Assembly (NCBI GenBank): GCA_022446795.1
Contig: JAKVBX010000001.1
Location: 438,651-502,650 of the forward strand
Length of the DNA: 64,000 nucleotides
Reading direction: 5' to 3'
From: Phycisphaerales bacterium
GTDB lineage: Bacteria; Planctomycetota; Phycisphaerae; Phycisphaerales; SM1A02
Below the pieces are notes generated by a model. The model ran no database searches, was not told the origin of the DNA, and worked only from the letters and a program-made list of their open reading frames with translations. Made by a program: the position numbers and the translations under genes. Within the stretch, counting starts at the first letter, position 1; each line of letters opens with the position of its first letter. Positions 882 to 43,435 of the stretch are shown here, piece after piece.

Positions 882-887
882 AGACTA
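882..887 (-). promoter_or_regulatory. candidate -10 box (TAGTCT) of the TauE gene
   Basis: TAGTCT ends six bases before the ATG on the minus strand and no purine-rich ribosome site lies between. This fits a leaderless promoter in which transcription starts at or next to the A of ATG. It is one of several like it in the window. No clear -35 box is seen. Confidence 0.4.
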
Positions 888-951
888 GCAGGGCACCGGG
901 TCCCGCAGGTCGAATCCAGGGAATCACGGAGACCGGGCAGATGCCCATCCC

Positions 952-1905
952 ATGATCAGGTCCAAGGTCCTCCGAGCCGATGCGCTGCTGCTGCTCCTGG
1001 CGATGCTGTGGGGCTCGGGCTTCATTGCGCAGAAGTGGGGACTGGAGCACGTGAGCCCCATGACCTTCGTCATGGTGCGACTGGTACTGGCGACCGCCTT
1101 CCTGGCCCCCCTGCTGTTGATCCGGCGGTCAGTACCGGCACAGATCCCCACGCCGCTTCGAAAGCTGGCGCCGATGCTGATCGGAGTCGCGGTCATGGTC
1201 TTTCTCGGCAGTTGGCTTCAGCAGTCGGGACTGCAGACCACCGAGGCAGGTACCGCTGGTTTCATCACCGGGCTGTATGTCGTGTTCACACCATTGCTGG
1301 GCCTGCTCATCGGCTACCGCGTCCGAGCCATGACGTGGCTGGCAACACTGATCGCGGTCGCCGGGCTGTTCCTGCTGACGGTTGCCGGTCGACCGGTGCT
1401 GAACATCGGCGATCTCCTGATCCTCATCTGCGCCGTGGCCTGGGGCGCCCAACTGCTCTTCGTCGGATGGCTGGCACCACGAATGGACGTGATCCTGTTG
1501 ACGGTCATCCAACTCGGTGGCGCCGCCTGCATCAGCGTGGTCGCCACGCTCATCTTCGAGCCGATCGACTTCGAGGCCATCCTGGCTGCCCGGTGGCCGA
1601 TCCTGTACACGGCCCTGGTCACCACGGGGCTGGCCTTCCTCATCCAGGTCTGGGCCCAGCAGCATGCGCCTCCGGCGCATGCGGCCATTCTCATCAGCCT
1701 GGAGTCGGTCTTCTCCGTGCTCTTCGGATGGTGGATGCTCAGTGAACGACTGAGCGATATTCAGATCATCGGTTGTGTCGTGATGTTCATTGCGATCATC
1801 GTGGCCGAACTCAAGCCGCCTCGGCAGGAGTTCTTCACAGGGCAGCCTGACGAGGTCAGCCCTCCTCCACCCGAAGCCGATCCACGATCTCGCGGACCTG
1901 CTTGA
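952..1905 (+). CDS. EamA/DMT-family transporter
   Basis: A 317-residue drug/metabolite-transporter superfamily protein with two EamA repeats. The first starts at about residue 10 with the typical LWGSGFIAQKWGL segment, the second at about residue 150 (ICAVAWGAQLLFVGWLAP), giving about ten predicted helices. The last 30 residues are a Pro-rich hydrophilic tail. That tail overlaps the 3' end of the convergent FHA-sigma gene by 50 bases. Such proteins export amino acids, metabolites or nucleotide derivatives; the substrate is not predictable here. Confidence 0.88.
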   Translation: MIRSKVLRADALLLLLAMLWGSGFIAQKWGLEHVSPMTFVMVRLVLATAFLAPLLLIRRSVPAQIPTPLRKLAPMLIGVAVMVFLGSWLQQSGLQTTEAGTAGFITGLYVVFTPLLGLLIGYRVRAMTWLATLIAVAGLFLLTVAGRPVLNIGDLLILICAVAWGAQLLFVGWLAPRMDVILLTVIQLGGAACISVVATLIFEPIDFEAILAARWPILYTALVTTGLAFLIQVWAQQHAPPAHAAILISLESVFSVLFGWWMLSERLSDIQIIGCVVMFIAIIVAELKPPRQEFFTGQPDEVSPPPPEADPRSRGPA

Positions 1906-2878
1906 CCAATCGCATCTTGGCGTGACGAATCGCTGCCGGGGTCATGTCCAGCTCCGTGCTGACCTGCTCCACGGGAACACCGCGAACGCCGTACAACTCG
2001 AAGGCCTTCCACGTTCTCTCCTCGACACCACCGCGGGCCTCGGTCATCGCCCGCTGGAGCAACTGCTCCGTCCACTGCCGATCCCAGGCGTCGTCGACAT
2101 CCGGCATCTCTCCCGGCGGATCGTAGTCCTCCTTGAGAAACGTACTGGGCCGCTTTCGACGATGTCGCGCCCGGATGGCATTGAGCGTCACCCGCTTCAG
2201 GTAGCCACGGAAACGCCCGCGATCCGGGTCGTAGACGAACTGATCCGACACCCGGAAGAACCCCAGGAGAACGTCCTGGAGAACATCGTCGGCGTCCTGT
2301 GCCCGCAGGCCCGCGTTGCGAGCGAAGCCGGCAATGACCCGGGCATACTTCTCCGTGAATTCCTGCCAGCCCAGTTCACGATCAAGCGAACCATCCGCCC
2401 GCAACCGCAGGAAGATGCTGGCACGGGTCGTGTAGGCCGAATCGGATCGGGAGGGGTCCGCCTTCTTCTTCGGCGGCGTCGCCTGCTCATCCGGCTCGGC
2501 ACCGGGCGCTCTCGTCTCGGCCTGGCTGTCGTCCTTCTCCTCGCCGAGGCGAACCAGGATCTTCCAGGGCCCGACGGTCAACAGGTCACGGTCAAAGATC
2601 TGAACCGTGTCGCCCTTCTCCAGGAACATCATGTTGACTGCGATACCCGCGCGGGACTCCAGGTCGCGAACGAAGGTCTTGCCGCCCTCGCGGAAGATCG
2701 TCGCGTGCTCCCGGGAGACACTTCCCTCGCTGAGAACGACACCGCAGTCGTTCGAACGACCCATCGTCACCGGTCCGGCGACCGATACCCGAGCCCGCTT
2801 GAATTCCTCGGGACCCGATACCGCAACGAGGTCGATTTCCTCCTGCGTTCGAGCTGGGTTGGCCGTCTCCTCAGGCAT
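1856..2878 (-). CDS. FHA domain-ECF sigma factor fusion
   Basis: A 340-residue protein with an N-terminal forkhead-associated domain (about 15-110; GRS at 40-42 and SxxH at 55-58 are the phosphothreonine-binding signature), a charged Pro/Lys linker (about 113-150), then an ECF-type sigma factor. Sigma region 2 is at about 172-240 (ADDVLQDVLLGFFR, then the YLKRVTLNAIRARHRR strand) and region 4 HTH at about 286-335. A phospho-threonine reader fused to a sigma factor suggests control by a Ser/Thr kinase, as proposed for planctomycete ECFs; that is inference. The start overlaps the putP stop by 8 bases, so the two are probably one transcript. No anti-sigma gene is next to it. Confidence 0.85.
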   Translation of the reverse strand: MPEETANPARTQEEIDLVAVSGPEEFKRARVSVAGPVTMGRSNDCGVVLSEGSVSREHATIFREGGKTFVRDLESRAGIAVNMMFLEKGDTVQIFDRDLLTVGPWKILVRLGEEKDDSQAETRAPGAEPDEQATPPKKKADPSRSDSAYTTRASIFLRLRADGSLDRELGWQEFTEKYARVIAGFARNAGLRAQDADDVLQDVLLGFFRVSDQFVYDPDRGRFRGYLKRVTLNAIRARHRRKRPSTFLKEDYDPPGEMPDVDDAWDRQWTEQLLQRAMTEARGGVEERTWKAFELYGVRGVPVEQVSTELDMTPAAIRHAKMRLVKQVREIVDRLRVEEG

Positions 2879-4391
2879 GCTTGGATGATACCCCGGGATC
2901 CGCTTCCAACGCCGGCGGCCGCGTCAGGAGGCTGACAATGACGTTCACCACCAGTGCCAGTATGAACGCAAGTGGCAGGTTGTAGATCTTGAAGCTGCCA
3001 ATGGCACCGTCGAAGACCAGTTGCCAGAGCAAGGCCACCAGGAACCCGGTAGCCATGCCCGCCACACATCCCCAGAAGGTGGCACGACGCCAGAACACCG
3101 CCAGGATGATCTGCGGACCGAATGACGCGCCGAGCACGGCCCAACCATAGGTCAGGACATACGTATAGATCGTGACGTCCTTGTCGATGACCAGGAGCAC
3201 CGCAATCGCGCCCAACACGAGAATCGTCCCCCGGTTCACCAGCAGGTGCCCCAGCCGACGGCTTCGGTCAATCAAGCGTGCGTAGACATCATTGGCCGCC
3301 GCGGACGAGGCCACGACCAGTTGGCTGTCGGCCGTGGAGCAGATCGCCGACAGCACCGCCGCGAGAATCAGCCCACCGACCAGCGGTGGGACCAGCGCCT
3401 TGGCAGCAGCCACCAGGGCGTACTCACCCGCGCCTGATCCCTGGACGGGAACACCGGCCAGCATCTCCTGTGCCCAGGGCGCGCCGTTCTCTGCCAACGC
3501 TCGCGCGATCAACCCGACCGTTACGGCACCCGCGAGAACCAGCGCCGCCCAGATGAAGGCGATGAGGCCACCGACATAGGCATCCCGACCGCGGCGAAGC
3601 GCCATGAACCGAACCAGGACATGAGGCTGACCGACGTAGCCGAAGTTGATACCCAGCGCACCGGATCCCAACAGGAAGCCGATCAGCGCCGCACCCGTTG
3701 CACGCGGCCAGAACTCAAGGAGGTTGTCTCCACCCTTGGCCAGACCCGATCGAATCATCTCGATGCCATCACCCGAGATCAACAACCACAATGGGAAGAC
3801 GACCAGGACGCCGACCATCAGCAGGCCCTGCAGCAGATCCGTCCAGCACGCGGCCCGGAATCCACCCAGGGTCACGTAGGTCAGCACGATCACGGCGCCG
3901 ATCAACACGCCCCACTGGTAGGACATGCCATCGAAACTTGCTTCAAAGGCCTTTCCCGCCGCGGCGAACTGGGCCGCGCAATAGAGCATCATGGCGACGA
4001 GGATCACCACCACCGACATCAGTCGAATCACCGGCCAGCTTTCCTTGAACCGCAAGGCGAGATAGTCCGGAATGGTGACGGCTCCCAACTTGTCGGAGCC
4101 CTCGCGCAGCGGCCTGGCCAACACGAACCAGTTGAAGAGGAACCCGATCAGACCACCGGGCAGGATCCAGTAGGCCGTGACGCCATCGGCGAATGCGAAC
4201 CCGACCAGTCCCAGCGTCACCCACCCGGACTCGCTGGATGCCGAGGCCGACAGCGATGCCACCCACGGGCCGAGCGATCGACCGGCCAGGAAATACTCCT
4301 CGTCACTCCGTGCTGCCTTGCGAGAGGTCCAGAGCCCCACGCCGATGACGAACACGGTGTATCCAATGAATGCGATGTAGAACAGTGCCAT
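2871..4391 (-). CDS. putP: Sodium:solute symporter, PutP-like
   Basis: A 506-residue member of the SSS family with about 13 transmembrane helices. The segment SASASSESGWVTLGLVG (about residues 48-64) resembles the sodium and substrate site of proline permease PutP, and YVTLGGFRAACWTDLLQG (about 173-190) is the family's hallmark. It imports proline or a related solute with sodium. The exact substrate is inferred from similarity and could be another amino or organic acid. It is first in a two-gene unit with the FHA-sigma factor. A TACCAT box lies ten bases before the ATG and no good Shine-Dalgarno is seen. Confidence 0.85.
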   Translation of the reverse strand: MALFYIAFIGYTVFVIGVGLWTSRKAARSDEEYFLAGRSLGPWVASLSASASSESGWVTLGLVGFAFADGVTAYWILPGGLIGFLFNWFVLARPLREGSDKLGAVTIPDYLALRFKESWPVIRLMSVVVILVAMMLYCAAQFAAAGKAFEASFDGMSYQWGVLIGAVIVLTYVTLGGFRAACWTDLLQGLLMVGVLVVFPLWLLISGDGIEMIRSGLAKGGDNLLEFWPRATGAALIGFLLGSGALGINFGYVGQPHVLVRFMALRRGRDAYVGGLIAFIWAALVLAGAVTVGLIARALAENGAPWAQEMLAGVPVQGSGAGEYALVAAAKALVPPLVGGLILAAVLSAICSTADSQLVVASSAAANDVYARLIDRSRRLGHLLVNRGTILVLGAIAVLLVIDKDVTIYTYVLTYGWAVLGASFGPQIILAVFWRRATFWGCVAGMATGFLVALLWQLVFDGAIGSFKIYNLPLAFILALVVNVIVSLLTRPPALEADPGVSSKHA

Positions 4392-4595
4392 TCGAACATT
4401 GATGGTAACAGCGGTTGTGCGGCCCGATGCTCCTGCCGCCCCTGTGTCACTTCAATGGTCACTTGAGCATGAATATGAGCCGTTTGTGCAACTCCCGGCT
4501 TCCCCGGCAGGGCCCGTGAACGTACCCCTCCCTTGGACCGTATTGCCCACCAGCCCTCGAGGCCGGTGCCACCGTGCCAGACGGAGACCTGCTCC

Positions 4596-5801: not shown

Positions 5802-5834
5802 AGAGGCCCCTGGACCGCAGGGAAGAGAGTGGTC

Positions 5835-7394: not shown

Positions 7395-7435
7395 CAAAGG
7401 CGTCTCCCATCTACCATTCCCCGGCACGGGACGCG

Positions 7436-7441
7436 TACGAT
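7436..7441 (+). promoter_or_regulatory. candidate -10 box (TACGAT) of the gcdH-like gene
   Basis: TACGAT lies 30 bases before ATG 7472 in the gap between the divergent acyl-CoA ligase and dehydrogenase. A short leader with a strong ribosome site (GGAGGA) follows. The -35 region is not obvious. Confidence 0.3.
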
Positions 7442-7471
7442 GATCACGCTCCCGTGGCCGGAGGATACTGC

Positions 7472-8671: not shown

Positions 8672-8703
8672 CGCCTGCCCCATCTCGAGAGGATCATGCC
8701 GCC

Positions 8704-9141: not shown

Positions 9142-10280
9142 GCCAGGCCCCGGGTGCGTCCACCCCCGCGACCAAGACGTCGCTCCGGGTGAACAACTTC
9201 GACCTGATTCGCCTGCTCGCCGCATCGCAGGTGGTCATCATGCACATGGTGCTCTACCTGCAGTTGCAACCAACCTCGGCTGTAGGAAAATTCCTGCTGG
9301 TGGTGTTTCTCAACTTCCCGGGTGTCCCCATCTTCTTCGTGATCAGCGGCTTTCTGATCTCACTGTCGTGGGAACGCAGTGGGTCACCTGGCATCTACGC
9401 GACGAATCGCTTCCTGAGACTCTTCCCCGCCCTGTGGGTCTGCCTGATCGTGACGATCATCGTGCTGCTGGCCTCTGGATATCTCACGTCCGGGGTGTTC
9501 TCCACCCAGGAATTCCTGCGGTGGATCTTCTGGCAGGCCACGATCTACCAGACCTATACCGTGGACATGCTCCGTGGATTCCCGACACACGGCGCCCCCA
9601 ACGGAAGTCTCTGGTCCATCCCAGTGGAGATGCAGTTCTACGTTGTCCTGCCGATCATCTATCTGCTGCTACCCAAGTCAAAGAAGGCTTTCACCTGGGG
9701 ACTGATCGGCATCACGATCGTGCTGGCGGCCGTGAGTGAGTGGATCATCAAGACCCAGGACCCCACGAGCAAGCAGGGATTCTTCCTGCTCATGATCTCC
9801 TGCCTGCCCTATGTGTACATGTTCCTCTTCGGGGTCATTATCCAGAAGACCCTGCCGATACTGATGCCGATCCTGCGTGGCATGTTCATCCCTTGGGTGG
9901 CTTTCTACCTGGCAGTCGTGCTGATCCTTCACTATGGATTCGATTGGTTCACCGGCATCAGGCTTGGAACGAACAATCCGCCCATACTGATCTCAGCCAT
10001 CATGGCCATGACCACGATCTCCGGGGCCTACACCTTCCCGAGACTCAGTGGATGGTTGCTCCGGAGCCAGGACATCTCGTACGGCACCTACATCTATCAC
10101 ATGGTGTTCATCAATCTCGTCCTCTATCTGGAGATCGCCAATGTCGCCTGGCAGATCATCATCGTCGTCGTGGCGACCTATGGCTGTGCGATCCTCTCCT
10201 GGAAGTTCATTGAACAACCCACGCTGGCCCTCAAGAAACGGACGCTCCGCACGTCCGCCACTGCCAAGCTCACCAAGTAG
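9138..10280 (+). CDS. Acyltransferase family 3 membrane protein (OafA-like)
   Basis: A 380-residue integral membrane O-acyltransferase with about ten helices. NNFDLIRLLAASQVVIMHM near the N-terminus holds the family's Arg and His, and FPGVPIFFVISGFLISLSW is the typical second helix. Members acetylate or acylate cell-surface sugars or lipids; the acceptor here is unknown. Translation starts at ATG 9138 inside the deaminase stop codon (4-base overlap). No glycosyltransferases flank it, so the target cannot be read from context. Confidence 0.87.
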   Translation: MSQAPGASTPATKTSLRVNNFDLIRLLAASQVVIMHMVLYLQLQPTSAVGKFLLVVFLNFPGVPIFFVISGFLISLSWERSGSPGIYATNRFLRLFPALWVCLIVTIIVLLASGYLTSGVFSTQEFLRWIFWQATIYQTYTVDMLRGFPTHGAPNGSLWSIPVEMQFYVVLPIIYLLLPKSKKAFTWGLIGITIVLAAVSEWIIKTQDPTSKQGFFLLMISCLPYVYMFLFGVIIQKTLPILMPILRGMFIPWVAFYLAVVLILHYGFDWFTGIRLGTNNPPILISAIMAMTTISGAYTFPRLSGWLLRSQDISYGTYIYHMVFINLVLYLEIANVAWQIIIVVVATYGCAILSWKFIEQPTLALKKRTLRTSATAKLTK

Positions 10281-10283
10281 AAT
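10278..10283 (+). promoter_or_regulatory. candidate -10 box (TAGAAT) of astB on the preceding stop codon
   Basis: TAGAAT is a near-consensus -10 hexamer. Its TAG is the stop of the acyltransferase and it ends six bases before the astB ATG with no Shine-Dalgarno, which suggests a leaderless astB transcript. Confidence 0.45.
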
Positions 10284-12056: not shown

Positions 12057-15000
12057 ATGCCCGTCCCCGCCATCGTGCGATTCAGTCTCTGCGTCGCCCT
12101 CGTCCCCGCCGCCCTCGCGGACACGCCTTCCCTCAAGGCCCCCAACGGCATTTATGAACGCACCTTGGAGTGCCACGCCATCGTCGGCGCGGACGTGGTG
12201 CCTGCCCCCGGCGAACGGATCGAGGATGCCATCATCGTCATCCGAGACGGCGTCATCGAGGCCATCGGAACCGACATCTCGATTCCACCGGAAGCTCGCG
12301 TTCGACACGCCGAGGACATGACGATCTACCCGGGACTGGTCGAGCCAGCCCTGATGGTCGAGACCGCCGATCCCCCCGTTGGCATCGGCTCACACTGGAA
12401 TCGACAGATCCGATCACAGATGAACCTTGGCAACCCCGGCGGTCTGGCACCGCTGGCGGAGTCCACGCGTGACTCGATGCGCAAGGCCGGCTATACCGTC
12501 GCCGCCATCCATCCCTCCCGCGGCATCTTCCGTGGCCAGGGCACGGTGCTGCCGATGGCCAAGGAAGCCGTTGATATCCGACCCTACCCGGCCAACGTGC
12601 CGATGTCGGTCGGCTTCGATCGTGGCGGATGGGGCGCGGGCTACCCGAGTTCCCTGATGGGCTCCATTGCCCTGATGCGACAGACCCTGATGGATGCCCG
12701 CTGGCACCAGGCCTGCCTGGAGACCTGGGCAGCAGACCCGGGATCGATGCAGCGACCACCACGACACGACGCGCTCGTGGCGTTGCAGGATGTCGTGGCC
12801 GGCACGCAGCCGATCCTGGTGGAAACGGGATCACTGGCCAACGCCCTGCGGGCCCATGCCGTCGCCGAGGAGTTCGGGCTGGATGTCTGGCTCGTGGGTT
12901 CCGGTGACGAGTACCACGACCTCGACACCGTGGTTGAACTGGGCCATCCAATCATCGTTCCCATCGAGTTCCCGGACCGGCCGAACCTGGCCTCGCTGGA
13001 CTCCGCCGATCGCGTGACCCTGCGAACCATGCAGGAATGGGAACAGGCCCCGACCAACCTGAGACGACTCCTGGCCGCTGATGCGGACATCCACGTCACG
13101 TCCACCGGCCTGGGCAGTCCGAACGAGGTTCGCAGCGGACTTCGGAAAGCCATCAATACCGGTGGGCTGGATGAGACCGACGCCCTCGCATTGATCACCA
13201 CCCGGCCGGCACGCCTGCTGGGCATCGAGGACCAGGTCGGGCGCATTGCTCCCGGCATGGCCGCGCACCTCGTGGTGTGCACTGGTGATCTCTTCGACAA
13301 GAAGACCAAGATTCACGAGGTCTGGGTCGCCGGCACGCGGCACGACTATCACGAGGAACCCATGATGGAACTGGCCGGGCGCGGCACGTTCACCTCGGGT
13401 GACCTGGTCCTCAAGGGCTCGATCGACACCACGAAGAAGTCCTTCTCCGTCGATGTTCCGGTCGTGGAAGAAAAAGACGAAGCGGCTGAGGAAGGCGACG
13501 AAGAAGCCGGCGAGGAAACGGAGAAGAAGGACACGGTCAAGACCGTCAAGGCCAAGTCCATCGACAAGGACGGCCATCGCTTCTGGGGAGTCATCGACTC
13601 GGCACCCTGGGACGCCGAGGGCTGGGCTCGATTCGGCGGACGGATCGAAGGCGAGGCCTTCGTGGGACGCGGTCGCCTGGCCGATGGAACGCCCTTCACC
13701 TTCCGCTTCGAGAAATCCGACGAGGAAGAAGGCGAAGACGCGACCGACGACGAGGTCGAAGAGGAAGTCCAGCCGGACGAGACCGTTGCAGCCGATCCCG
13801 TGGCCGGCACGTGGATCGTGGCCATGGAGATTCCCAATGCCGACTTCACGCCCGAGATCGAGATCAACATCGAACGCCAGGGCGAGGACCTGTCCGCTTC
13901 GGTCTCGATGATGCGCAACGAGCAGACGATGGACTCCGTCACCTTCGACCCGGGAACGAACACCCTGAAGATGGTCAACCAGCGAGACGAAGGTGACTTC
14001 GTCGTCGAAGCCAAGGTGGATGGCAACCGCGTCAGCGGAACCGCCACCAGTCCCTGGGGCGAGTTCGCCATCTCCGGATCGCGATCCGGTGGTGATGACA
14101 GCGACGACGCGGGATCCGACGATGACGAGGCCGAATCCGGCAGTCCCATTCCCGACGAGATCGCGTACCCGCTGGGGGCCTTCGGCCGTACCGAACTGCC
14201 CGAGACCGTAGACGTGCGGATCGAGAACGCGACGATCTGGACCTGTGGCCCGGCGGGGATCATCGAGGATGGTTGCCTGGTCACCCAGGACGGCATCATC
14301 ACCTGGGTCGGCCCCTGTGCCGACGCTCCGGCCGCCGATGCTGGCTCGATGATCATCGACGGCACCGACCTCCACATTACCCCGGGACTCATTGACTGCC
14401 ACAGCCATACCGGCATCACCGGTGGCGTGAACGAAGGCAGCGAGGCCTGCACGGCCGAGGTCCGGATCGGCGATGTCATCGATCCGGAGGATATCGATTG
14501 GTATCGGCAACTCTCCGGTGGCCTGACGGCCTGCCATCAGTTGCACGGCTCCGCCAATCCCATCGGTGGACAGAACACCGTGGTGAAGCTCAAGTGGGGC
14601 CACCAGGCCAAGGACTTCCGGATTCCCGATGCCATCCCAGGCATCAAGTTCGCCCTCGGCGAAAACGTCAAGCGAAGTACCGGCCGCTATCCCAACACTC
14701 GCATGGGCGTCGACGCCTTCATGCGGGATCGCTTTGCCGCCGCCCAGGCCTACCGGGACGAGTGGAACCGATGGAACGCCAAGACGGCCGAGCAGCAGGC
14801 CCAGGCGATGCCGCCACGGCAGGACATCGAGATGGACACGCTCGTGGAGATCCTCGAGGGGCGGCGGCTGATCCACTGCCACTCGTACCGCCAGGACGAG
14901 ATCCTCGCGCTCCTTCGCACGGCCGAGGAGTACGGATTCACGATCGGCACGCTCCAGCACATCCTGGAGGGATACAAGGTCGCCGATGCGATTGCAGACC

Positions 15001-15623
15001 ACGGCGCGGGCGCCAGTTCGTTCAGCGACTGGTGGGCCTACAAGGTCGAGGTCATGGATGCGATTCCCTACAACGGCTCCATCATGCGGGACGTGGGCGT
15101 CAACGTGTCCTTCAACTCCGATGACAACGAACTCGCCACGCGGATGAACGACGAAGCCGCCAAGGCGGTCCGCTACGGCGGCGTTCCGCGAGCCGAGGCC
15201 CTGCACTTCGTGACCATCAACCCGGCCTACCAGCTTCGGATCGACCATCGAACCGGTTCGCTGGAAACCAACAAGGACGCCGACTTCGTCATCTGGTCCG
15301 AGGACCCGCTGAGTTCCTACAGTCGGTGTCTCCAGACCTGGATCGAGGGCGCCCGCTACTACGACGAGGACGAGGACTTCAAGATGCGAGAGGCGGTTGC
15401 CTCGGAGCGACGACGACTCACCGCGAAGATTCTCGCGGAAGCGGTCGGCGCACCGGCCTCGCCCACGCCGAGTGACGGTGCCGGAGAGGCCCCGCCACCG
15501 GTTCGCGACGGGCCACCCCAGCGACGGCGTTGGCGTGAACGTCCCACCGAGGTCATCCTCGATTTCCCCTATGAAGACCAAGACCACCGCGGTGTCTGCG
15601 GTTGCAACGAGGTGCAACAATGA
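12057..15623 (+). CDS. Secreted two-barrel amidohydrolase, one barrel degenerate
   Basis: A 1188-residue protein with a signal peptide (about 1-21). Residues about 30-430 form an imidazolonepropionase-like amidohydrolase domain whose usual PGLIDxHxH metal strand reads PGLVEPALMVE, so metal ligands are missing. A Glu/Asp/Lys-rich middle (about 450-700) contains a beta-rich repeat. Residues about 720-1130 are a second amidohydrolase domain with HITPGLIDCHSHTG intact (His782 and His784), further histidines at 940 and 942, and FNSDDNELATR. It probably hydrolyses a cyclic amide or similar substrate in the periplasm; the substrate is unknown. The next amidohydrolase overlaps its stop by four bases. 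Confidence 0.87.
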   Translation: MPVPAIVRFSLCVALVPAALADTPSLKAPNGIYERTLECHAIVGADVVPAPGERIEDAIIVIRDGVIEAIGTDISIPPEARVRHAEDMTIYPGLVEPALMVETADPPVGIGSHWNRQIRSQMNLGNPGGLAPLAESTRDSMRKAGYTVAAIHPSRGIFRGQGTVLPMAKEAVDIRPYPANVPMSVGFDRGGWGAGYPSSLMGSIALMRQTLMDARWHQACLETWAADPGSMQRPPRHDALVALQDVVAGTQPILVETGSLANALRAHAVAEEFGLDVWLVGSGDEYHDLDTVVELGHPIIVPIEFPDRPNLASLDSADRVTLRTMQEWEQAPTNLRRLLAADADIHVTSTGLGSPNEVRSGLRKAINTGGLDETDALALITTRPARLLGIEDQVGRIAPGMAAHLVVCTGDLFDKKTKIHEVWVAGTRHDYHEEPMMELAGRGTFTSGDLVLKGSIDTTKKSFSVDVPVVEEKDEAAEEGDEEAGEETEKKDTVKTVKAKSIDKDGHRFWGVIDSAPWDAEGWARFGGRIEGEAFVGRGRLADGTPFTFRFEKSDEEEGEDATDDEVEEEVQPDETVAADPVAGTWIVAMEIPNADFTPEIEINIERQGEDLSASVSMMRNEQTMDSVTFDPGTNTLKMVNQRDEGDFVVEAKVDGNRVSGTATSPWGEFAISGSRSGGDDSDDAGSDDDEAESGSPIPDEIAYPLGAFGRTELPETVDVRIENATIWTCGPAGIIEDGCLVTQDGIITWVGPCADAPAADAGSMIIDGTDLHITPGLIDCHSHTGITGGVNEGSEACTAEVRIGDVIDPEDIDWYRQLSGGLTACHQLHGSANPIGGQNTVVKLKWGHQAKDFRIPDAIPGIKFALGENVKRSTGRYPNTRMGVDAFMRDRFAAAQAYRDEWNRWNAKTAEQQAQAMPPRQDIEMDTLVEILEGRRLIHCHSYRQDEILALLRTAEEYGFTIGTLQHILEGYKVADAIADHGAGASSFSDWWAYKVEVMDAIPYNGSIMRDVGVNVSFNSDDNELATRMNDEAAKAVRYGGVPRAEALHFVTINPAYQLRIDHRTGSLETNKDADFVIWSEDPLSSYSRCLQTWIEGARYYDEDEDFKMREAVASERRRLTAKILAEAVGAPASPTPSDGAGEAPPPVRDGPPQRRRWRERPTEVILDFPYEDQDHRGVCGCNEVQQ

Positions 15624-16912: not shown

Positions 16913-16947
16913 ACCTGGTCGAAGTCGAAGTCCGACATGGGATCGGG

Positions 16948-16953
16948 TAGCGT
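16948..16953 (+). promoter_or_regulatory. candidate -10 box (TAGCGT) of the aldehyde dehydrogenase gene
   Basis: TAGCGT ends seven bases before ATG 16961 with no ribosome-binding sequence in between, which fits a leaderless start. Confidence 0.35.
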
Positions 16954-27401: not shown

Positions 27402-29237
27402 CTACTCCACGGTGACGCTCTTGGCGAGATTGCGGGGCTTGTCCACGTCATGACCACGCATCACGGCGGCGTGATAGGCCAGGATCTGCAATGGCACGAC
27501 GGTCAACAGCGGCTGCAGGACCTCGGGAACATCCGGGACGAAGAAGACGTCTTCGCAGATGTTCCGGATCGAGTCATCCCCCTCGGTCGCCACGGCGATG
27601 ACATGTCCCCCGCGGGATCGGACTTCCTCGATGTTCGACAGCACTTTCTCGTACTGGCTGCTTCGGGTGGCCACGACCACCACCGGCATGCCCTTGTCAA
27701 TCAAGGCGATGGGACCATGCTTCATCTCGGCCGCGGGCATGCCCTCGGCGTGGATGTAGGAGATCTCCTTGAGCTTCAGGGCGCCCTCCATGGCCACTGG
27801 GTAATTCACCCCACGACCCAGGAACAGCCAGTTGTCACGCTGAACGTACTTACCCACCACCTCGGCGATCTGGTCACTCTGGTCGAGGACACGGGAGATG
27901 AGTGTCGGCACCGTGTTGAGCGTCTCCAGCATCGAGCTGGCTTCCATGGGCGAGAGGAAGCGGCGACGACCCAGCCAGGTCGCCAGGAGGACCGAGGCTG
28001 TCACCTGACCGAGAAAGGCCTTGGTCGATGCCACCCCGATCTCCGGGCCCACGCGAAGGTAGACCCCGGCATCCGATTCCCGCGTGATGGTCGATCCCAC
28101 GACATTCACCAGTCCCAGCGTCATCGCACCCTTCCGCGAGGCTTCGCGGAGGGCGGCATGGGTATCAGCGGTCTCACCGGACTGACTGATCGCCACGACC
28201 ACGGTGCCATCCTCGATGATGGCATTGCGATAGCGGAACTCACTGGCAAAGTCCGCTCGGCTGGGTATCTTCGCCAGGCCTTCCACGAGGTAGGACGCGA
28301 TCATCCCCGCGTGAAGCGCCGTGCCTTGTCCCAGGAAGACAACACGACGCGTGCGACCCAGTTCCCGGGCAAACTCGTTCAAGCCACCCAGGACCACGGA
28401 ACCATCACGAGCGGAGACGCGGCCCTTGAGGCATCGACGGATGGCCTCGGGCTGCTCATGGATCTCCTTGAGCATGTAGTGCGGATAGCTGCCCAGTTCG
28501 ATCTGCTCGAGATCGACTTCCAGCTCACGCATCTGCGGCGTGATGGTCACGTTTTCAAGCGTCGACGTCCGGAATGAATCCGTCGTCAACCGGGCAATGG
28601 TGTCATCATCAAGCTCGATGGCCTGGTTGGTGTGAGCCACGATGGCGCTGGCATCGGATGCGACGATGTACTCATCGCTGCCCACGCCGATCATCAGCGG
28701 CGAACCCTTGCGGGCCACCACCAGGACATCCGGCTCCTGGGCACAGACCACGGCGATGGCGTAGGCCCCCGTGACTTCCCGCAGGGCCTGTCGGACGCTG
28801 GCCTCGAGATCACCCTCGTAGAAGTGACCGATGAGATGGGCCAGGACCTCGGTATCGGTATCCGAGGCAAAGACATGCCCGTTGTCCATCAGGTAGGTCT
28901 TCAGGGCCGCGTGATTCTCGATGATCCCGTTGTGGACGATCGCGATGCCATGCCCCAGCTCGGGGTCATCCTCGTGGGGATGGGCATTGCGATCACTGGG
29001 TTCGCCATGGGTGGCCCAGCGGGTGTGAGCCAGCCCGATGGTCCCGTCAAAGCGGTCATCCTGGCCCAACTGGTCCTCGAGGACCCGGACCCGCCCGGCG
29101 GTCTTGCTCAATTGGAGGCCGCCATTGATCACGGCGATCCCCGCCGAATCGTACCCACGGTACTCCAGACGCTTGAGGCCCTCCAGGAGCAGCTCCCGGG
29201 CAGGCTTTCCACCGATATAGGCGACGATTCCGCACAT
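27402..29237 (-). CDS. glmS: Glutamine-fructose-6-phosphate aminotransferase
   Basis: A 611-residue enzyme making glucosamine-6-phosphate, the first step toward UDP-GlcNAc. Cys2 (MCGIVAYIGG) is the glutaminase nucleophile, RWATHGEPSDRNAHPH belongs to the glutaminase domain, and two SIS sugar-isomerase domains occupy about residues 285-600 (AISQSGETADTHAAL, GRGVNYPVAMEGALKLKE), with the terminal PRNLAKSVTVE. Length matches E. coli GlmS. No glmS ribozyme-like structure was looked for beyond the short 54-base gap, which is too small to hold one. It is divergent from rarA. Confidence 0.97.
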   Translation of the reverse strand: MCGIVAYIGGKPARELLLEGLKRLEYRGYDSAGIAVINGGLQLSKTAGRVRVLEDQLGQDDRFDGTIGLAHTRWATHGEPSDRNAHPHEDDPELGHGIAIVHNGIIENHAALKTYLMDNGHVFASDTDTEVLAHLIGHFYEGDLEASVRQALREVTGAYAIAVVCAQEPDVLVVARKGSPLMIGVGSDEYIVASDASAIVAHTNQAIELDDDTIARLTTDSFRTSTLENVTITPQMRELEVDLEQIELGSYPHYMLKEIHEQPEAIRRCLKGRVSARDGSVVLGGLNEFARELGRTRRVVFLGQGTALHAGMIASYLVEGLAKIPSRADFASEFRYRNAIIEDGTVVVAISQSGETADTHAALREASRKGAMTLGLVNVVGSTITRESDAGVYLRVGPEIGVASTKAFLGQVTASVLLATWLGRRRFLSPMEASSMLETLNTVPTLISRVLDQSDQIAEVVGKYVQRDNWLFLGRGVNYPVAMEGALKLKEISYIHAEGMPAAEMKHGPIALIDKGMPVVVVATRSSQYEKVLSNIEEVRSRGGHVIAVATEGDDSIRNICEDVFFVPDVPEVLQPLLTVVPLQILAYHAAVMRGHDVDKPRNLAKSVTVE

Positions 29238-29279
29238 GGATCCGGGGGAAGTCTAGCCGAGTATCTGGCGCAGGCGACT

Positions 29280-29285
29280 TAGTAT
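29280..29285 (+). promoter_or_regulatory. candidate -10 box (TAGTAT) of rarA
   Basis: TAGTAT ends six bases before ATG 29292 in the short gap shared with glmS, with no ribosome site, so rarA may be read from a leaderless mRNA. Confidence 0.4.
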
Positions 29286-29291
29286 GCCCAC

Positions 29292-31163: not shown

Positions 31164-32366
31164 TCACTGCCGGACGTCGACGGTGCTGACACCCTCGGCC
31201 AGGACGGCATAGACCATGTCGATCTCACCATCACGAAGCCGTATGCAGCCCATCGAGGCGTCGGTGCCGATCGTGTCGGGCTCAATCGTGCCGTGGATGC
31301 CGAAACTCCGCTCGTCCCGGTTGGTGGGATCGAGCCCGGCCAGGCCCAGCCAGTACTCACCGAGGGGGTTGTCAGGATCGTCCGCGGGATAGAACTCACC
31401 CGTCTGGGGATTGACCCAGGTGGGATTGACGACCTTGCGACCCTTCTTCACTTTGAACCTCCCAAGTGGTGTCGAGTCATGAGCCCCCAACCCGACCTCG
31501 TATGAGCGGACGAACACCCGCTCTGGCCCCTCGCCCATGTACAGGTCCATTCGATGCGTCGCCTTGTCGACCTCGGCATGGAATGGCCCGCGAACGAGCT
31601 TGATGGACTGGCCGACCCGGAGGCTCTCGGGACGAGCCATGCCGTTGACATATTGCAACAGACGCCAGTCAACTTCAAGGTCCTGCGTGCTGACAATCCG
31701 GGAAAGGGAGTCACCCGGCCGCACTTCGTAACTGACCGCCCACGTGTCCTCGGGGTAGACGCGTGGCCCGAATACGAGTTCTTCGTTGATCTGCCCGAGC
31801 ATCATCCGGGCATCGGAGGCCTCGAGACCCCTGACCGCATCGCTGTCGATCGCCTGGGTCAGCAGGGCCCGTGCCTCAACCAGCCGACCCTGGGCAACCA
31901 GGCCCTCGGCCAGGCCCAGCGGTCCACTCCCGGTGGGCGCTGGACGAGCTGGTGGTGGTGTCGTCGACCAATCGGCGACCTCTGCTGGTGGCGTCGTCTC
32001 GATGGGCTCAATTGGCTCCGCCGGCTCGACCCGTTCGTTCACGATCGGATCCGGGGTCCACTGCGGCAGGTCGATGACCGGGTTGTCTTCAATCGGCGGT
32101 GCCGGGGGGATGGCCCGGCGAGTGGCCAGGCTCGTTTCCTCGCGACGATCCTCGATGATTGGCGGTGGTTCTGGTGCCAGCGTGGCCTGCGTGTTCTCGT
32201 CGGCCTGCGTCGGCGCAGGGCTCCCCCAACCGAAGGCCAACCAGACACCAAGGCCCACGATCACCACAATGGCGACCAGGGCGGCTGGGCCGCGGCGGCG
32301 GCGCTTGCGACGATAGACGTACCGCCCGCGTACCGGGCTCGACTGCATCTGGCTTGGAAGGGCCAT
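31164..32366 (-). CDS. LysM-containing L,D-transpeptidase (YkuD)
   Basis: A 400-residue peptidoglycan-modifying enzyme. A basic N-terminus (RRKRRRR) and one helix (about 28-46) anchor it, a Pro/Thr-rich spacer follows, a LysM domain (VSYEVRPGDSLSRI..., about 205-255) binds glycan, and a YkuD domain ends the protein with His358 and Cys374 in the HGT...SMGCIRL signature. It forms 3-3 cross-links or attaches proteins to peptidoglycan. ATG 32366 has an AGGAGTACAGG ribosome site; the frame to 32426 is rejected. It supports a peptidoglycan wall in this organism. Confidence 0.9.
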   Translation of the reverse strand: MALPSQMQSSPVRGRYVYRRKRRRRGPAALVAIVVIVGLGVWLAFGWGSPAPTQADENTQATLAPEPPPIIEDRREETSLATRRAIPPAPPIEDNPVIDLPQWTPDPIVNERVEPAEPIEPIETTPPAEVADWSTTPPPARPAPTGSGPLGLAEGLVAQGRLVEARALLTQAIDSDAVRGLEASDARMMLGQINEELVFGPRVYPEDTWAVSYEVRPGDSLSRIVSTQDLEVDWRLLQYVNGMARPESLRVGQSIKLVRGPFHAEVDKATHRMDLYMGEGPERVFVRSYEVGLGAHDSTPLGRFKVKKGRKVVNPTWVNPQTGEFYPADDPDNPLGEYWLGLAGLDPTNRDERSFGIHGTIEPDTIGTDASMGCIRLRDGEIDMVYAVLAEGVSTVDVRQ

Positions 32367-32396
32367 CCTGTACTCCTGCCTCAAGAACGGGTGGAG

Positions 32397-32402
32397 TCTA
32401 TA
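32397..32402 (-). promoter_or_regulatory. candidate -10 box (TATAGA) of the L,D-transpeptidase gene
   Basis: TATAGA on the minus strand, 30 bases before ATG 32366, leaves room for a leader with the AGGAG site. The -35 region is not recognisable. Confidence 0.3.
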
Positions 32403-32496
32403 CCGTCCCACCCCCAGGGGGTTCATCGACCCAAGTGCCTGTGGATCAACAGGGGAGAGCGTCTGAGGCGTCGCCAGGAGAGCGGCGTTGGCCCCC

Positions 32497-34014
32497 CTAG
32501 AACATCAACTGGAGCTGGCTGCGGACGAGGAACTGGGCGTGATGGTTGTCCGGATCCGTCCGCCAGCCCGTCTGCTCGATGTTCATGAAGGCCGTGATGG
32601 GGTCGAAGGAGACGCCGAAATCGGTCGTCCACTTGACGTCCTGGCCGTCGATGTACCAGTTGACGCCCGCCGTCAGGATCGAGACGCCCTGGGTATCGAA
32701 TCCATCGTTGCCATCGGGGTCTGCCAGGTCCTGGTTGAAGGGCCCACCCATCTCGTAGCGGGTGTAGATCTCCCACTTGGGATCGACATACACGCTGCCC
32801 TGGACGACCATGCCCCAGTAGTCGATGCTGTTGATATTCCCGCTGGTGTCCGGGTTCACCTGCCGTTCGTAGACGAACGACGCGAACGCCGAGGCCCCGC
32901 CGAAGTCCATCGAGACGTCCGCGGTGACACCGTAGAGCGACCCCTTCACCACGTCGACACTGCGGTCCCGCTCCTGGGACTGCCCGTGGCCCGCGACGCC
33001 GATCATCATGCCGAACTCTTCGTGGGTCGGGCTCGTGAACTGCTTGAACTGCTCCCACTCACCGTGAAGCAGCCACTCGAGGCGGCCTGTCACCGCCCAC
33101 TCGGTATCCGGTACGTAGGCGGCCCAGGGCGGCACGATGAAGTCGGCGCTGCGGAATGAGAACAGCGCCGCGCTGCCATCGGTGTAGGCAACCTGGGTCC
33201 GGACCGGACCGAAGTACGTATCCAGCTCAACACCCATCGAGCGGCCCAGGCCGAATCGATAGTCGATGAGCGATCGGTCCACGGCCAACTGCAGGCCTTC
33301 GTAGACCAGGAACTCACGGGTGAATGGCAGCTTGAACAGTCCGGCCTTGACCGCGATGTTTTCGGTCAGGCGCTGACGCGCCCAGGCCTCGTAGAGCCGG
33401 GAGCCGAATCGCTGGAAGTTCTGGCTGATCTGGTAGGGATCGAGGCGTCCGAACCCCATTTCGATGAAGTAATCCGTGTCGTTGAAAACGTGACCGCCCA
33501 GGTTCATCCGGGTCGTCGTGTTCTCAAAGCCATACCGCGTGTTGTCCTGGTCGAGCACCTGGCCCTCGTCGCCATTGAGGATGTTGACCATCAGGCGGGT
33601 CTGCATCAGGGCACCGATCTTCAGCCGAAACCGACCATCAGCGCTGGCCAGGAAGAAGCCATCCGACCATCCTGCCATGAGGCCGCTGCCCATCAGGCTT
33701 GCCCGGGTATCGGCATCCGCCAGGACGTCCTGGACGAGTTCCTTGATGTCTTCCGCTCGCTGCTCGGTCAACCAGTCACGCGTCGCATCGGCGTGGAGAA
33801 AGTCGATCTCCTCACGCATCTGCTCGTTCTCGCGACGGATTTCGTCGTTCTGCCCTCGAAGTTCATCCAGCTGACGCCGGATGTCCTCGATGTCGACGCC
33901 GGAGACCCCGGTGGCGTCATCCGCCATGGCGGGTGACCAGGCGACAAGACCGCCCAGCACCAGGACGATGGTGGACAGGATGGGATTCAGGCCAGCGGGT
34001 ATTCGAACCGGCAT
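32497..34014 (-). CDS. Outer-membrane porin, phosphate-selective O/P-like
   Basis: A 505-residue outer-membrane beta-barrel with a signal peptide (about 1-31), a short coiled coil (about 42-75; ELRGQNDEIRRENEQMREE), a conserved stalk (TEQRAEDIKELVQDVLADAD) and a barrel of alternating beta strands ending in LQLMF with the terminal Phe used by the BAM complex. The coiled coil could tie it to peptidoglycan or form a trimer. It is a paralogue of the next porin upstream. The solute is unknown; phosphate or anions is an inference from family name only. Confidence 0.85.
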   Translation of the reverse strand: MPVRIPAGLNPILSTIVLVLGGLVAWSPAMADDATGVSGVDIEDIRRQLDELRGQNDEIRRENEQMREEIDFLHADATRDWLTEQRAEDIKELVQDVLADADTRASLMGSGLMAGWSDGFFLASADGRFRLKIGALMQTRLMVNILNGDEGQVLDQDNTRYGFENTTTRMNLGGHVFNDTDYFIEMGFGRLDPYQISQNFQRFGSRLYEAWARQRLTENIAVKAGLFKLPFTREFLVYEGLQLAVDRSLIDYRFGLGRSMGVELDTYFGPVRTQVAYTDGSAALFSFRSADFIVPPWAAYVPDTEWAVTGRLEWLLHGEWEQFKQFTSPTHEEFGMMIGVAGHGQSQERDRSVDVVKGSLYGVTADVSMDFGGASAFASFVYERQVNPDTSGNINSIDYWGMVVQGSVYVDPKWEIYTRYEMGGPFNQDLADPDGNDGFDTQGVSILTAGVNWYIDGQDVKWTTDFGVSFDPITAFMNIEQTGWRTDPDNHHAQFLVRSQLQLMF

Positions 34015-34092
34015 GGGTGCAAGGCTCCGAGCGGGGGCCGATCTCTACTGCGAGCAGTGTATCCAGCCGACTGCTCTCGCGTCGGAACCTGG

Positions 34093-34128
34093 ACAAAAGA
34101 CACCGGCCGACCCCGAGGGGTCGGCCGG
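34093..34128 (-). terminator. Rho-independent terminator after the long porin gene
   Basis: A perfect 12-bp GC stem (34103-34114 with 34117-34128, loop GA) followed on the minus strand by TGTCTTTTGTCC. It lies about 40 bases after the porin stop and before the next porin start, so the two porins are separate transcription units. Confidence 0.88.
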
Positions 34129-34169
34129 CGCGAACATCGAGAGATGTAACTGGGTTGTGGCCAGTTAAC

Positions 34170-36020
34170 TCAGAAGAAGAGCTGCAGCTGCGTACGCAGC
34201 AGCCACTCTCCACCATTGTCGCCCGAAGGCAGCCAGTTGGTGTAACCGTAGCCGGAACCAAGGGCGACGACCTGGCTGAAGGACCAGCTCCAGTCGAGGC
34301 TCAGCTTGGCATTGTTGCCGGCGAGGTAGTAGTTGGCACCGAAGGTGAGCATGTTGAGCTCGTCGCTGCTCCCGTAGGTCTGGGAGTAGGACGGGTCAAG
34401 CCACTGGTAGCGGCCGTACAGCTCGACATCGTCAGTGACGTAGAAGCCACCGCTGACCTCGAAGCCCCACGGGTTGTTGTTGCCGGACTCACGCTGATCA
34501 CCAACGGAGATCGAGCCCATGACATTCCAACCACCCATGTCGACAGACAGGTCACCCGTGACCATCCAGTTGCTCCGGCTGGTGAACGGGAAGAGGCTGT
34601 CGTCAGAATCCAAGTAGGCAGCACCGACACCGGCGAGGATACCCATCTCTTCGCCAGGCATGGAGCTGATCTCGTTGAACTGATCCCAGGTACCACCGAG
34701 GAGGACCTCGGCGCGACCGGAGAAGGCGTACTCGGCAGCATTGGTGTAGTAGGCACCATTGGTGGCAGAACCGAAGTCCTGGCCAGCGTTGGAGTACATC
34801 GCATTGACGCGGAACATGTCAGTCTGCCAGTTGACCTTCACACCATTGGTGATGGAGGACGTGGCCCAGAAGTAGGTGTAGAGCGAACGCTCGATGGCCT
34901 GCTGGTACTCAGCATTGACCATGAAGCCACGCATCACGTCGTACTTCTGACGACCGATCTGAACGCTGAACTCGTCGTTGAACTTGATGCCGGCATAAGC
35001 CCACTCAAGAACGCCGTCGGAGATGCCCGGCTGGGGCGTCGCAGCGGCAACACCGGTGGGGCTGAACGCGCCAGTTCCACCAAGAGTCGTTGCGGTCAGT
35101 GCATTCACGGACTGGGCCGACTGGTTGTACGGCGACCAATCCAGACGCATGTTGTAGTAGTAGTCCTCGGCGACGACACCAGAAAGGTTGATCGCAGCAC
35201 GAGTCGTCTCGAAGCCATTGTTCGTGTGGTTGCCGTACTCGAACGGGAAACCAAAGCCAGTGCTGAAGGCACCAGGCTCAGCGTAGACCACCTGGCCCGT
35301 CGGCATGACGTAGTAGTCACCGACTGAGTAGGACAGGCCCGGAAGAGTTCCGGCGGGGACCGGCGTGATGCCCGGAAGCACCGTGCCGAAGTTGACTGCA
35401 CCCGGGATGTTCAGGACCGGGACGCCACCAACAGCACCGAGACCGGCGGCGTTGGGAACGACGGTTCCGTCATAGCGGGTGTTGGTTCCGGTGATCGCAC
35501 CGTTGTAGGAAGCGACCGGGGCATTGAACGGAACGGCATTGGGGAAGACACCCGTGGCCGTCGGATTGTTCGGCCAGTTGGGGGAGGGACGCAGGGTGTT
35601 GGTTGCCAAGGCGTTTGCCAGGGCGGCGCCCGTCAGGGGGGTGTTGCGGGTCTCATTGCGGCTGAGAACCCAGCGATTCTGCAGAAGACCGTTGATACGG
35701 AGCTTCCACTTACCGTCGGAACTCGAAATCACGAAGCCGTTGTCATAACCGGCCGACATGTTCGAGCCCTGGAGGCTGGCACGCGTGTCCGCATCAGCGA
35801 GAACGTCCTGGACGATCTCTCGGATTTCGTCGGCACGCTGCTCAGTCAGCCAGTCGGCATCCGTCTGGGCAGACAGCTCAGCGATCTTTGATTCGGCTGC
35901 TTCCAGCCGGGCCTGCATATCAGTGTTGCTGATGTCACTGGACGGCGTTGCTGCAAATGCAGCCCCCGTCAGCATGGTTGCGGTGGCTCCGAAGAGGCCT
36001 ACCTTCGTCGTCAGACTCAT
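34170..36020 (-). CDS. Outer-membrane porin with a large inserted loop
   Basis: A 616-residue paralogue of the downstream porin. It has a signal peptide (about 1-24), a coiled-coil segment (MQARLEAAESKIAELSAQ), the same stalk (DWLTEQRADEIREIVQDVLADADTRASL), and a barrel ending in QLQLFF. The extra length sits at about residues 115-265, an Asn/Ala/Pro/Gly-rich low-complexity stretch in the place of a short loop in the paralogue, likely extracellular. TTAGGAG before the ATG is a good ribosome site. Codon use appears biased and less GC-rich than neighbours, as in highly expressed genes. Confidence 0.85.
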   Translation of the reverse strand: MSLTTKVGLFGATATMLTGAAFAATPSSDISNTDMQARLEAAESKIAELSAQTDADWLTEQRADEIREIVQDVLADADTRASLQGSNMSAGYDNGFVISSSDGKWKLRINGLLQNRWVLSRNETRNTPLTGAALANALATNTLRPSPNWPNNPTATGVFPNAVPFNAPVASYNGAITGTNTRYDGTVVPNAAGLGAVGGVPVLNIPGAVNFGTVLPGITPVPAGTLPGLSYSVGDYYVMPTGQVVYAEPGAFSTGFGFPFEYGNHTNNGFETTRAAINLSGVVAEDYYYNMRLDWSPYNQSAQSVNALTATTLGGTGAFSPTGVAAATPQPGISDGVLEWAYAGIKFNDEFSVQIGRQKYDVMRGFMVNAEYQQAIERSLYTYFWATSSITNGVKVNWQTDMFRVNAMYSNAGQDFGSATNGAYYTNAAEYAFSGRAEVLLGGTWDQFNEISSMPGEEMGILAGVGAAYLDSDDSLFPFTSRSNWMVTGDLSVDMGGWNVMGSISVGDQRESGNNNPWGFEVSGGFYVTDDVELYGRYQWLDPSYSQTYGSSDELNMLTFGANYYLAGNNAKLSLDWSWSFSQVVALGSGYGYTNWLPSGDNGGEWLLRTQLQLFF

Positions 36021-38350: not shown

Positions 38351-38440
38351 GGAGGACGCAGTGTAGCCGCCCGTGGACCCACAGGAGAAGGGAAATGGAA
38401 CCGACAGGGCGAGATCGTGAGCCTTGATTCCGGTTGGCCG

Positions 38441-41884: not shown

Positions 41885-42017
41885 ATTCGCGGGGAAAACG
41901 GATCTGGGACAGGCTACCGCACTCCAGCCGCGGAAACAATCCGAGCAGGTTCTCCCCAATCCACTCCGACCACCCCGCCACGTTGACACGGCCTGCCGAA
42001 ACAGCCACCCTCCCCTC

Positions 42018-42770: not shown

Positions 42771-42796
42771 GCCCCATTGATCCGCCTCGACCCCGT

Positions 42797-42802
42797 TACC
42801 AT
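42797..42802 (+). promoter_or_regulatory. candidate -10 box (TACCAT) of ruvA
   Basis: TACCAT ends six bases before the ruvA ATG at 42809, with no ribosome site. It overlaps another in-frame-unrelated ATG (42801), which could confuse start calling. Confidence 0.35.
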
Positions 42803-42808
42803 GAAGTC

Positions 42809-43435
42809 ATGATCAGCCGGATCGCCGGACGCTTGATCGAAGCCCGTGACGGACGGGCCCTCCTGGAATGCGATCACCTCGTATACGAGATTCTCGTTCC
42901 CACGGGAAGCGTCCCTCACCTCAGCAGCCAGACCGGCTCGACCATCATCTTCCACACGCTGCACTACCACGAGTCACATGGCCAGGGCGCTTCGTTCGTT
43001 CCCCGCCTCGTGGGCTTTGACAGCGAACGAGACCGGGCCTTCTTCGAGCTGTTCACCACGGTGAAGAACATCGGGTACCGCAAGGCCCTTCGTGCGCTGC
43101 AGCTGCCCTTCGATCGCGTCGCGACCGCCATCGCCGGCAAGGATGCGGCATTACTGACATCGCTTCCGGAGATCGGACGGCGGACCGCCGAGACGATCAT
43201 CGCGGAACTCAGCGGCAAGGTCGATGACTTCATCGACGAGACGCCCACGGTCGCCATCGAAGACGATGCCACCTCCGCCCTCATCGGTGACACGGTGTCG
43301 ATGCTGACCGCGTTGGGTGAGAGTCGGACCGAGGCCCATGCCCTCGCGGAGCGGGCCCTGGCCGTGGAACCGAAGATCACGACACCCGATGCCCTCCTGT
43401 CGGCCGTCTTCCGACTGCGAGAGACGATCCGGTAG
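42809..43435 (+). CDS. ruvA: Holliday junction DNA-binding subunit RuvA
   Basis: A 208-residue RuvA that holds the Holliday junction for the RuvB motor. The OB-fold N-terminus MISRIAGRLIEARDGRALLE and the helix-hairpin-helix LPEIGRRTAETIIAEL fit the family, as does the C-terminal RuvB-contact domain. The N-terminal half is diverged from the common pattern. ruvB and ruvC are not in the window. manC follows and ruvX lies just after that, giving two recombination genes around a sugar nucleotide gene. Confidence 0.85.
   Translation: MISRIAGRLIEARDGRALLECDHLVYEILVPTGSVPHLSSQTGSTIIFHTLHYHESHGQGASFVPRLVGFDSERDRAFFELFTTVKNIGYRKALRALQLPFDRVATAIAGKDAALLTSLPEIGRRTAETIIAELSGKVDDFIDETPTVAIEDDATSALIGDTVSMLTALGESRTEAHALAERALAVEPKITTPDALLSAVFRLRETIR

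Follow-up and report, generated by a model that had tools for sequence, protein, structure and literature searches.

Candidate leaderless gene starts marked by a TANNNT box in a planctomycete genome of the order Phycisphaerales

Boxed gene starts in the window

The subject of this analysis is a 64,000-nucleotide stretch of DNA from a Phycisphaerales bacterium (the window; bases 438651-502650 of contig C1 in a draft genome of 3.54 Mb and 78 contigs, with a G+C content of about 63%), in which a hexamer of the form TANNNT recurs a few nucleotides (nt) in front of start codons. The initial annotation had named seven such sites as candidates for leaderless transcripts that lack a Shine-Dalgarno sequence. 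Every one of them is present with the box sequence and the spacing that had been given, and a Shine-Dalgarno core, taken here as GGAG, GAGG or AGGA at -18 to -5, is found at none of the seven. Throughout, the spacer is the number of nt between the TANNNT box and the start codon.

Four of these sites lie on the plus strand. The box TAGAAT (10278..10283) stands 6 nt before the ATG of astB at 10290 (Pfam AstB), TAGTAT (29280..29285) 6 nt before that of rarA at 29292 (Pfam MgsA_C/AAA, RarA type), and TACCAT (42797..42802) 6 nt before that of ruvA at 42809 (Pfam RuvA_N), while a gene for an aldehyde dehydrogenase (Pfam Aldedh) has TAGCGT (16948..16953) 7 nt before the ATG at 16961. On the minus strand, the TauE gene (39-875; Pfam TauE) possesses TAGTCT (882..887) 6 nt before its ATG at 875, the gene for a putP-like sodium:solute symporter (2871-4391; Pfam SSF) TACCAT (4402..4407) 10 nt before the ATG at 4391, and nuoH (Pfam NADHdh) TACACT (38360..38365) 9 nt before the ATG at 38350. 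We found two further boxed starts beyond the initial list, both on the minus strand: a gene with FHA and sigma-70 region 2 domains (1856-2878), with TATCAT (2885..2890) 6 nt before the ATG at 2878, and the gene for a GlmS-like amidotransferase with GATase and SIS domains (27402-29237), with TAGACT (29250..29255) 12 nt before the ATG at 29237. Seven matches to TANNNT-N6-ATG are listed for the window, and two of them, near 53132 and 56126, are internal to predicted genes.

In two of these genes the box depends on the choice of the ATG. For the aldehyde dehydrogenase, the ATG at 16961 is boxed and that at 16937 is not; for nuoH, the ATG at 38350 is boxed and the one preferred by the gene caller, at 38317, is not. 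Amidotransferases of the GlmS kind begin at the cysteine, and the GlmS-like protein begins with MCG, which supports the ATG at 29237 as its start. The GlmS-like gene and rarA diverge, with 54 nt (29238-29291) between their ATGs, and they are divergent neighbors in the upstream sequences of two related loci (L027 and L026) as well. Since the two divergent boxed starts share these 54 nt, the predicted promoters of the two genes would overlap head to head. The protein encoded at 1856-2878 has sigma-70 region 2 behind an FHA domain, with no match to region 4 in Pfam, an unusual combination of a phosphopeptide reader with a sigma factor.

Spacing of the box and two proposed modes of gene start

For the genome-wide analysis, we examined 2,317,563 bases (65% of the genome) with a codon-usage gene caller, which chose starts by codon scores and start-codon type and used no upstream motif. 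It returned 1786 genes, 1748 of them with sufficient flanking sequence and an upstream neighbor. At these starts, the numbers of TANNNT boxes at spacers 0 to 12 are 1, 3, 1, 4, 1, 5, 99, 39, 31, 27, 16, 10 and 12; the near edge of the distribution is thus sharp, with five boxes at spacer 5 against 99 at spacer 6, and is followed by a tail to about 12. The initial annotation had suggested a count against a shuffled control, and this comparison yields an enrichment by a wide margin: 200 shuffles that preserved the dinucleotide composition of the 40 bases upstream had, on average, 4.8 boxes at spacer 6 (standard deviation 2.2, maximum 11), where the real starts have 99 of 1748. In a stricter subset of 468 genes, where an in-frame stop lies no more than 45 nt upstream and no other start codon comes between, 62 starts were boxed at spacer 6. 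Among gapped words of three bases, scanned blind, TA...T at -12 ranked first (z 27.8) and Shine-Dalgarno words followed.

Boxes at spacers 6-12 precede 234 of the 1748 genes, against about 34 expected from the shuffles, so that about 200 genes, or 11% of the starts, are boxed in excess of chance. Among genes at promoter positions, which we define by an opposite-strand neighbor or a gap of at least 30 nt, a count with a position weight matrix gives an excess over background of about 180 of 1250 at these spacers. Further boxes come to light at alternative in-frame starts within 90 nt of the called ones: for the 854 genes with neither box nor Shine-Dalgarno core, spacers 6-10 hold 24, 21, 9, 14 and 11 boxes and the control spacers 2-5 hold 3, 3, 3 and 1, whereas the alternative starts of the 660 Shine-Dalgarno genes show no rise (2, 6, 1, 3 and 2 at spacers 6-10). 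Judged by this excess, perhaps a further 60-70 starts are boxed at alternative positions only, which would bring the total to about 15%. Neither single-mismatch boxes, scored in the 632 promoter-position genes with neither signal, nor lower thresholds of the weight matrix gave any clear further enrichment.

The 99 genes with spacer 6 have a G at -14 in 64% of cases, which gives the box the form of an extended -10 element (GnTAnnnT); A or C occupies -8 in 83%, and the start codon is ATG in 90%. Between -50 and -15 no position in these genes exceeds 0.13 bit, and no -35 element is enriched at any single spacing. When the best TTGACA-like match of at least 4 over the five spacings 15-19 was taken, 16% of 196 leaderless-type promoters were positive against 11% of shuffled sequences, and 21% against 11% of 58 leadered promoters, a signal that is weak at best in both groups. 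By type, the spacer-6 boxes comprise 37 TAC, 35 TAG and 24 TAT. We also considered in-frame stop codons as the cause of the pattern and rejected them; all three of these types are enriched and TGANNT, with only three cases at spacer 6, is not, which speaks against a stop-codon effect. A spacer of 6 is the usual distance that places the transcription start (+1) at the A of the ATG. In spacer-7 genes that start with ATG, the base at -1 is a pyrimidine in 31 of 35, compared to 363 of 635 controls, which fits initiation at the A.

Boxed genes are depleted of Shine-Dalgarno sequences. The core occurs in 13 of the 99 spacer-6 genes, in 2 of 39 at spacer 7, in 7 of 58 at spacers 8-9 and in 3 of 38 at spacers 10-12, compared to 660 of the 1514 genes without a box; the 13% found at spacer 6 is also the frequency in a control window far upstream (234 of 1748). 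Spacer-6 boxes are also biased toward promoter positions, where they precede 87 of 1250 genes, versus 12 of 498 at gaps below 30 nt (Fisher p = 9e-5). Shine-Dalgarno cores without a box are distributed the other way, with the highest share at gaps below 30 nt (241 of 498) and the lowest where the upstream neighbor lies on the opposite strand (158 of 540), in agreement with the earlier view that genes inside operons carry strong Shine-Dalgarno sites. The same had been said of several genes for secreted proteins, and this was not borne out: an N-terminal hydrophobic stretch, admittedly a crude proxy for secretion, is present in 92 of 234 boxed genes and in 288 of 660 Shine-Dalgarno genes (p = 0.28).

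The box is not confined to the immediate vicinity of the start codon. Among 351 Shine-Dalgarno genes whose upstream region spans 60 nt or more, boxes peak at spacers 24-29, where 35 lie on the sense strand and 4 on the reverse strand; they remain in excess farther out (37 versus 11 at spacers 30-39, 59 versus 28 at 40-59) and are sparse in the zone between (3 versus 2 at 13-17, 9 versus 5 at 18-23). The corresponding sense and reverse counts for 638 non-Shine-Dalgarno genes are 112 versus 16 at spacers 6-12, 7 versus 8 at 13-17, 9 versus 7 at 18-23, and 26 versus 5 at 24-29. With the +1 seven bases after the box, these distances correspond to 5' leaders of either zero to about 6 nt or at least about 18 nt, with few in between. 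Such a scarcity of leaders of 7-17 nt would be expected if the box is a promoter, because they are too short to hold a Shine-Dalgarno sequence and yet are not leaderless.

Conservation in relatives and distribution in the phylum

To compare starts between species, we used three near relatives (L026, L027 and L028) and made 44 comparisons, 13 of them of boxed genes. (Relatives of the large protein encoded at 12057-15623, with 58-68% identity, come from draft genomes of Phycisphaerae SP4366 and SP4365 and of Phycisphaerales UBA3158.) For the boxed genes, the spacing is identical in 9 of the 13 comparisons and within 1 nt in 11, and the protein alignment starts at residue 1 in 11 and at residues 2 and 4 in the other two. 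The bases of the spacer differ between relatives while box and spacing are kept. The astB gene has TAGAAT at 6 nt in all three relatives; the FHA/sigma gene has TATCAT at 6 nt in both L026 and L027, with different spacer bases; TauE has TAGGCT at 6 nt in L026 (1 of 1), and the putP-like gene has TACCAT at 10 nt in L027 (1 of 1). The GlmS-like gene has a spacer of 11 instead of 12 in both relatives compared, with TAGACT in L027 and TAGAAT in L026. Two genes kept their box in one relative out of two: the aldehyde dehydrogenase gene has TAAAGT at 7 nt in L027, where the start lies three codons further up, and no box in L026, and rarA has TAATAT at 6 nt in L027 and AGGAGG instead in L026, where it has possibly switched from a leaderless to a Shine-Dalgarno start. 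Among the 31 comparisons of unboxed genes, 28 were readable (one only 36% identical), and none of the 28 was boxed at the first-listed start; at the second-listed start two were boxed, with spacers of 12 and 4. We also followed ruvA across the phylum. Of 30 loci, 26 had readable starts, and the 6-nt box is present in two of these, our own and L131 of the same order; the ruvA gene of L155, one of the four loci without an alignment and hence outside the 26, has TACACT at 6 nt.

The spread of the pattern was assessed by counting TANNMT-N6-ATG against the frame-matched control TANNMT-N3-ATG in 118 planctomycete genomes including our own, which has 180 matches against 41; a genome passed with an at least 2-fold excess and z of at least 4. 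Five of 6 genomes from the same order passed. None of the 4 from other orders of the class did so, and in the remainder of the phylum 40 of 107 passed. Within these 107, the outcome follows the background: none of the 24 genomes with more than 300 control matches passed, compared to 39 of the 51 with at most 100, so the count is uninformative for genomes of high background. In a second draw of 61 genomes from the order, all 15 others of the same family passed (4.3- to 103-fold), and so did 34 of the 45 outside it. One family, f24, whose genomes are 99-100% complete, stayed at 1.0- to 1.6-fold in 7 of 7. Gene-start profiles over 100 kb each gave 5 boxes at each of spacers 5 and 6 among 86 starts in G070, and 3 and 1, respectively, among 65 in G025 (same order); since spacer 5 is included here, lineages may differ in the precise spacing. 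No spacer-6 peak was found with the same gene caller in 100 kb each of G093 (1 of 65) and G042 (3 of 77), which belong to the same class and are richer in A+T.

Promoter interpretation, alternatives and known systems

We read the directly observed features, namely the box, its fixed spacing and enrichment, the depletion of Shine-Dalgarno sequences, the bias toward promoter positions and the conservation in near relatives, as the marks of a -10 element that very probably gives rise to leaderless or nearly leaderless mRNAs, beside initiation of the Shine-Dalgarno type. An extended -10 element (GnTAnnnT) without a clear -35 would place the start of transcription at the A of the ATG or a few nt before it, so that the predicted mRNAs would be leaderless or carry a leader of up to about 6 nt. 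By this reading, about one gene in eight would be transcribed from such a closely placed promoter. Their translation would proceed without a Shine-Dalgarno sequence, presumably through 70S ribosomes or IF2-primed 30S subunits at a 5'-terminal AUG, a mode of recognition described in other bacteria. Elsewhere in the genome, genes would use the same box at least 24 nt upstream, together with a Shine-Dalgarno sequence. The earlier proposal of leaderless transcripts and of two start modes side by side is in our view the best fit to these features.

Several observations weigh against this interpretation. All start-based counts share the caveat that the start positions are computational, and of the 1748 starts 854, or about half, show neither a box nor a Shine-Dalgarno core. 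Boxes are few at same-strand gaps of at least 100 nt (13 of 368). The ruvA box is absent in most of the order and the phylum, being present in 1 of the 25 other readable starts. The test for a purine at the expected +1 is not clean: there is no effect at spacer 10 (1 of 13), and the 58 leadered promoters, too, favor a pyrimidine seven bases past the box (78%) and show no peak of purines around that position. A crude whole-genome count of TANNNT-N6-ATG gives 264 matches against 245 for the reversed pattern, almost no contrast, and is uninformative since the coding background swamps the signal; for TANNMT-N6-ATG the contrast with the reversed pattern (180 versus 105) is smaller than that with the N3 control. 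Finally, spacers 7-12 are enriched as well, each of the six counts given above contributing to 135 genes in sum, so that a leader of 1-6 nt may be present on some of the transcripts, or the +1 may be flexible.

This last point feeds the alternative that fares best, in which the box is a -10 element and most mRNAs possess a leader of 1-6 nt, and are therefore nearly rather than strictly leaderless. It overlaps with the explanation that we prefer and differs from it in degree; we regard it as possible, though clearly the less probable of the two. More genes fall on spacers 7-12 than on spacer 6 (135 versus 99), and the longer spacings are kept between species, at 10 in the putP gene of L027 and at 11-12 in the GlmS-like gene of L026 and L027. 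Spacer 6 is nevertheless the largest single class, and the base before the ATG is seldom a purine in the spacer-7 group, unclean as the purine test may be. That the hexamer is a translation signal, acting for instance as an AT-rich S1 contact or a breaker of structure rather than as a promoter, appears very improbable to us. AT-rich patches before non-Shine-Dalgarno starts have been discussed both as S1 sites and as leaderless promoters (Nakagawa 2017, PMC5397173), but a signal of this kind would not readily account for a near edge of the spacing that is exact to one base, for the lack of enrichment of single-mismatch boxes, for the enrichment of the same GnTAnnnT far upstream of Shine-Dalgarno genes, or for the lower frequency of boxes at operon gaps below 30 nt. 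Scarcely credible, even though the starts were called computationally on codon usage, is an artefact of start calling, stop codons of upstream genes or base composition: no upstream motif entered the start choice, the signal survives dinucleotide shuffles and the strict-start subset, TGANNT is not enriched, the alignments of the 13 boxed comparisons begin at residue 1 in 11 cases and at residues 2 and 4 in the other two, and the same caller produced no spacer-6 peak in the two A+T-richer genomes of the class (1 of 65 and 3 of 77).

With the promoter interpretation in hand, a wider proposal can be formulated, to which we would give an even chance. In the Phycisphaerales and several other planctomycete families, a single GnTAnnnT promoter poor in -35 elements would drive both start modes, leaders would be two-peaked (0 to about 6 nt, or at least about 18 nt, with little use of the lengths between), and genes such as rarA would change from one mode to the other in the course of lineage divergence. 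If so, leaderless starts would occur widely among the high-G+C members of the phylum and be rare in certain families known from near-complete genomes, f24 among them, which may explain why they have received little notice. Families with and without the signal, standing side by side, would allow gain, loss and gene-by-gene switching to be traced. On the practical side, the starts of leaderless genes are easily misplaced, as the estimated 60-70 boxes found only at alternative starts illustrate.

Leaderless initiation has mostly been studied in Deinococcus, Actinobacteria and archaea, and transcript maps for Actinobacteria are said to exist from work on Mycobacterium smegmatis. In the Deinococcus-Thermus group, leaderless genes likewise carry a TANNNT hexamer shortly before the start and coexist with genes that use a ribosome-binding site (PMC12340547; PMC3160421). 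According to the 2025 paper on that group, experiments show the motif to be the -10 element of leaderless genes, and it works as a promoter without a -35, which only enhances it (PMC12340547). The planctomycete case differs in phylum and in being known from sequence alone, in the share of genes concerned (about 11% by the strict count and perhaps 15%, against about 30% there; PMC12340547), and in the G at -14 found in 64%, the word "extended" being absent from the text of PMC12340547. In Actinobacteria, which are again another phylum, the TA-led genes of high-G+C genomes have TANNNT about 12 bp upstream of the start, and leaderless genes were reported in 86 of 89 genomes, at an average of 19.2% of genes (PMC3160421). 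The same survey, which defined TA-led genes by this TANNNT motif, counted 207 of 953 bacterial genomes with leaderless genes (Zheng 2011; PMC3160421); 8 of the 20 "Other Bacteria" were positive and could include planctomycetes, although "planctomycet" does not occur in its text. Leaderless initiation is discussed there as possibly ancestral (PMC3160421). For one planctomycete species, Nakagawa 2017 described a base bias compatible with leaderless mRNA and/or S1, and the box, its spacing, a gene list and the distribution within the phylum are not in the covered text of that paper (PMC5397173). In the open-licence literature searched, we found no other leaderless claim for planctomycetes and no planctomycete map of transcription starts, the by-phylum Fig. 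S7 of PMC12340547 being outside the scope of this search. The kind of start is thus known from Deinococcus and Actinobacteria; a planctomycete lineage with its spacing, conservation and distribution was not found in that literature and appears to be new. Anti-Shine-Dalgarno types have been tabulated by class, with Phycisphaerae among them (PMC10783764); when we looked for the anti-Shine-Dalgarno sequence of our own bacterium, no 16S rRNA gene was found in this assembly.

Elsewhere in the window, two adjacent genes on the minus strand (32497-36020) have weak Porin_O_P matches and may encode outer-membrane porins; a gene for an L,D-transpeptidase with LysM (31164-32426) adjoins them.

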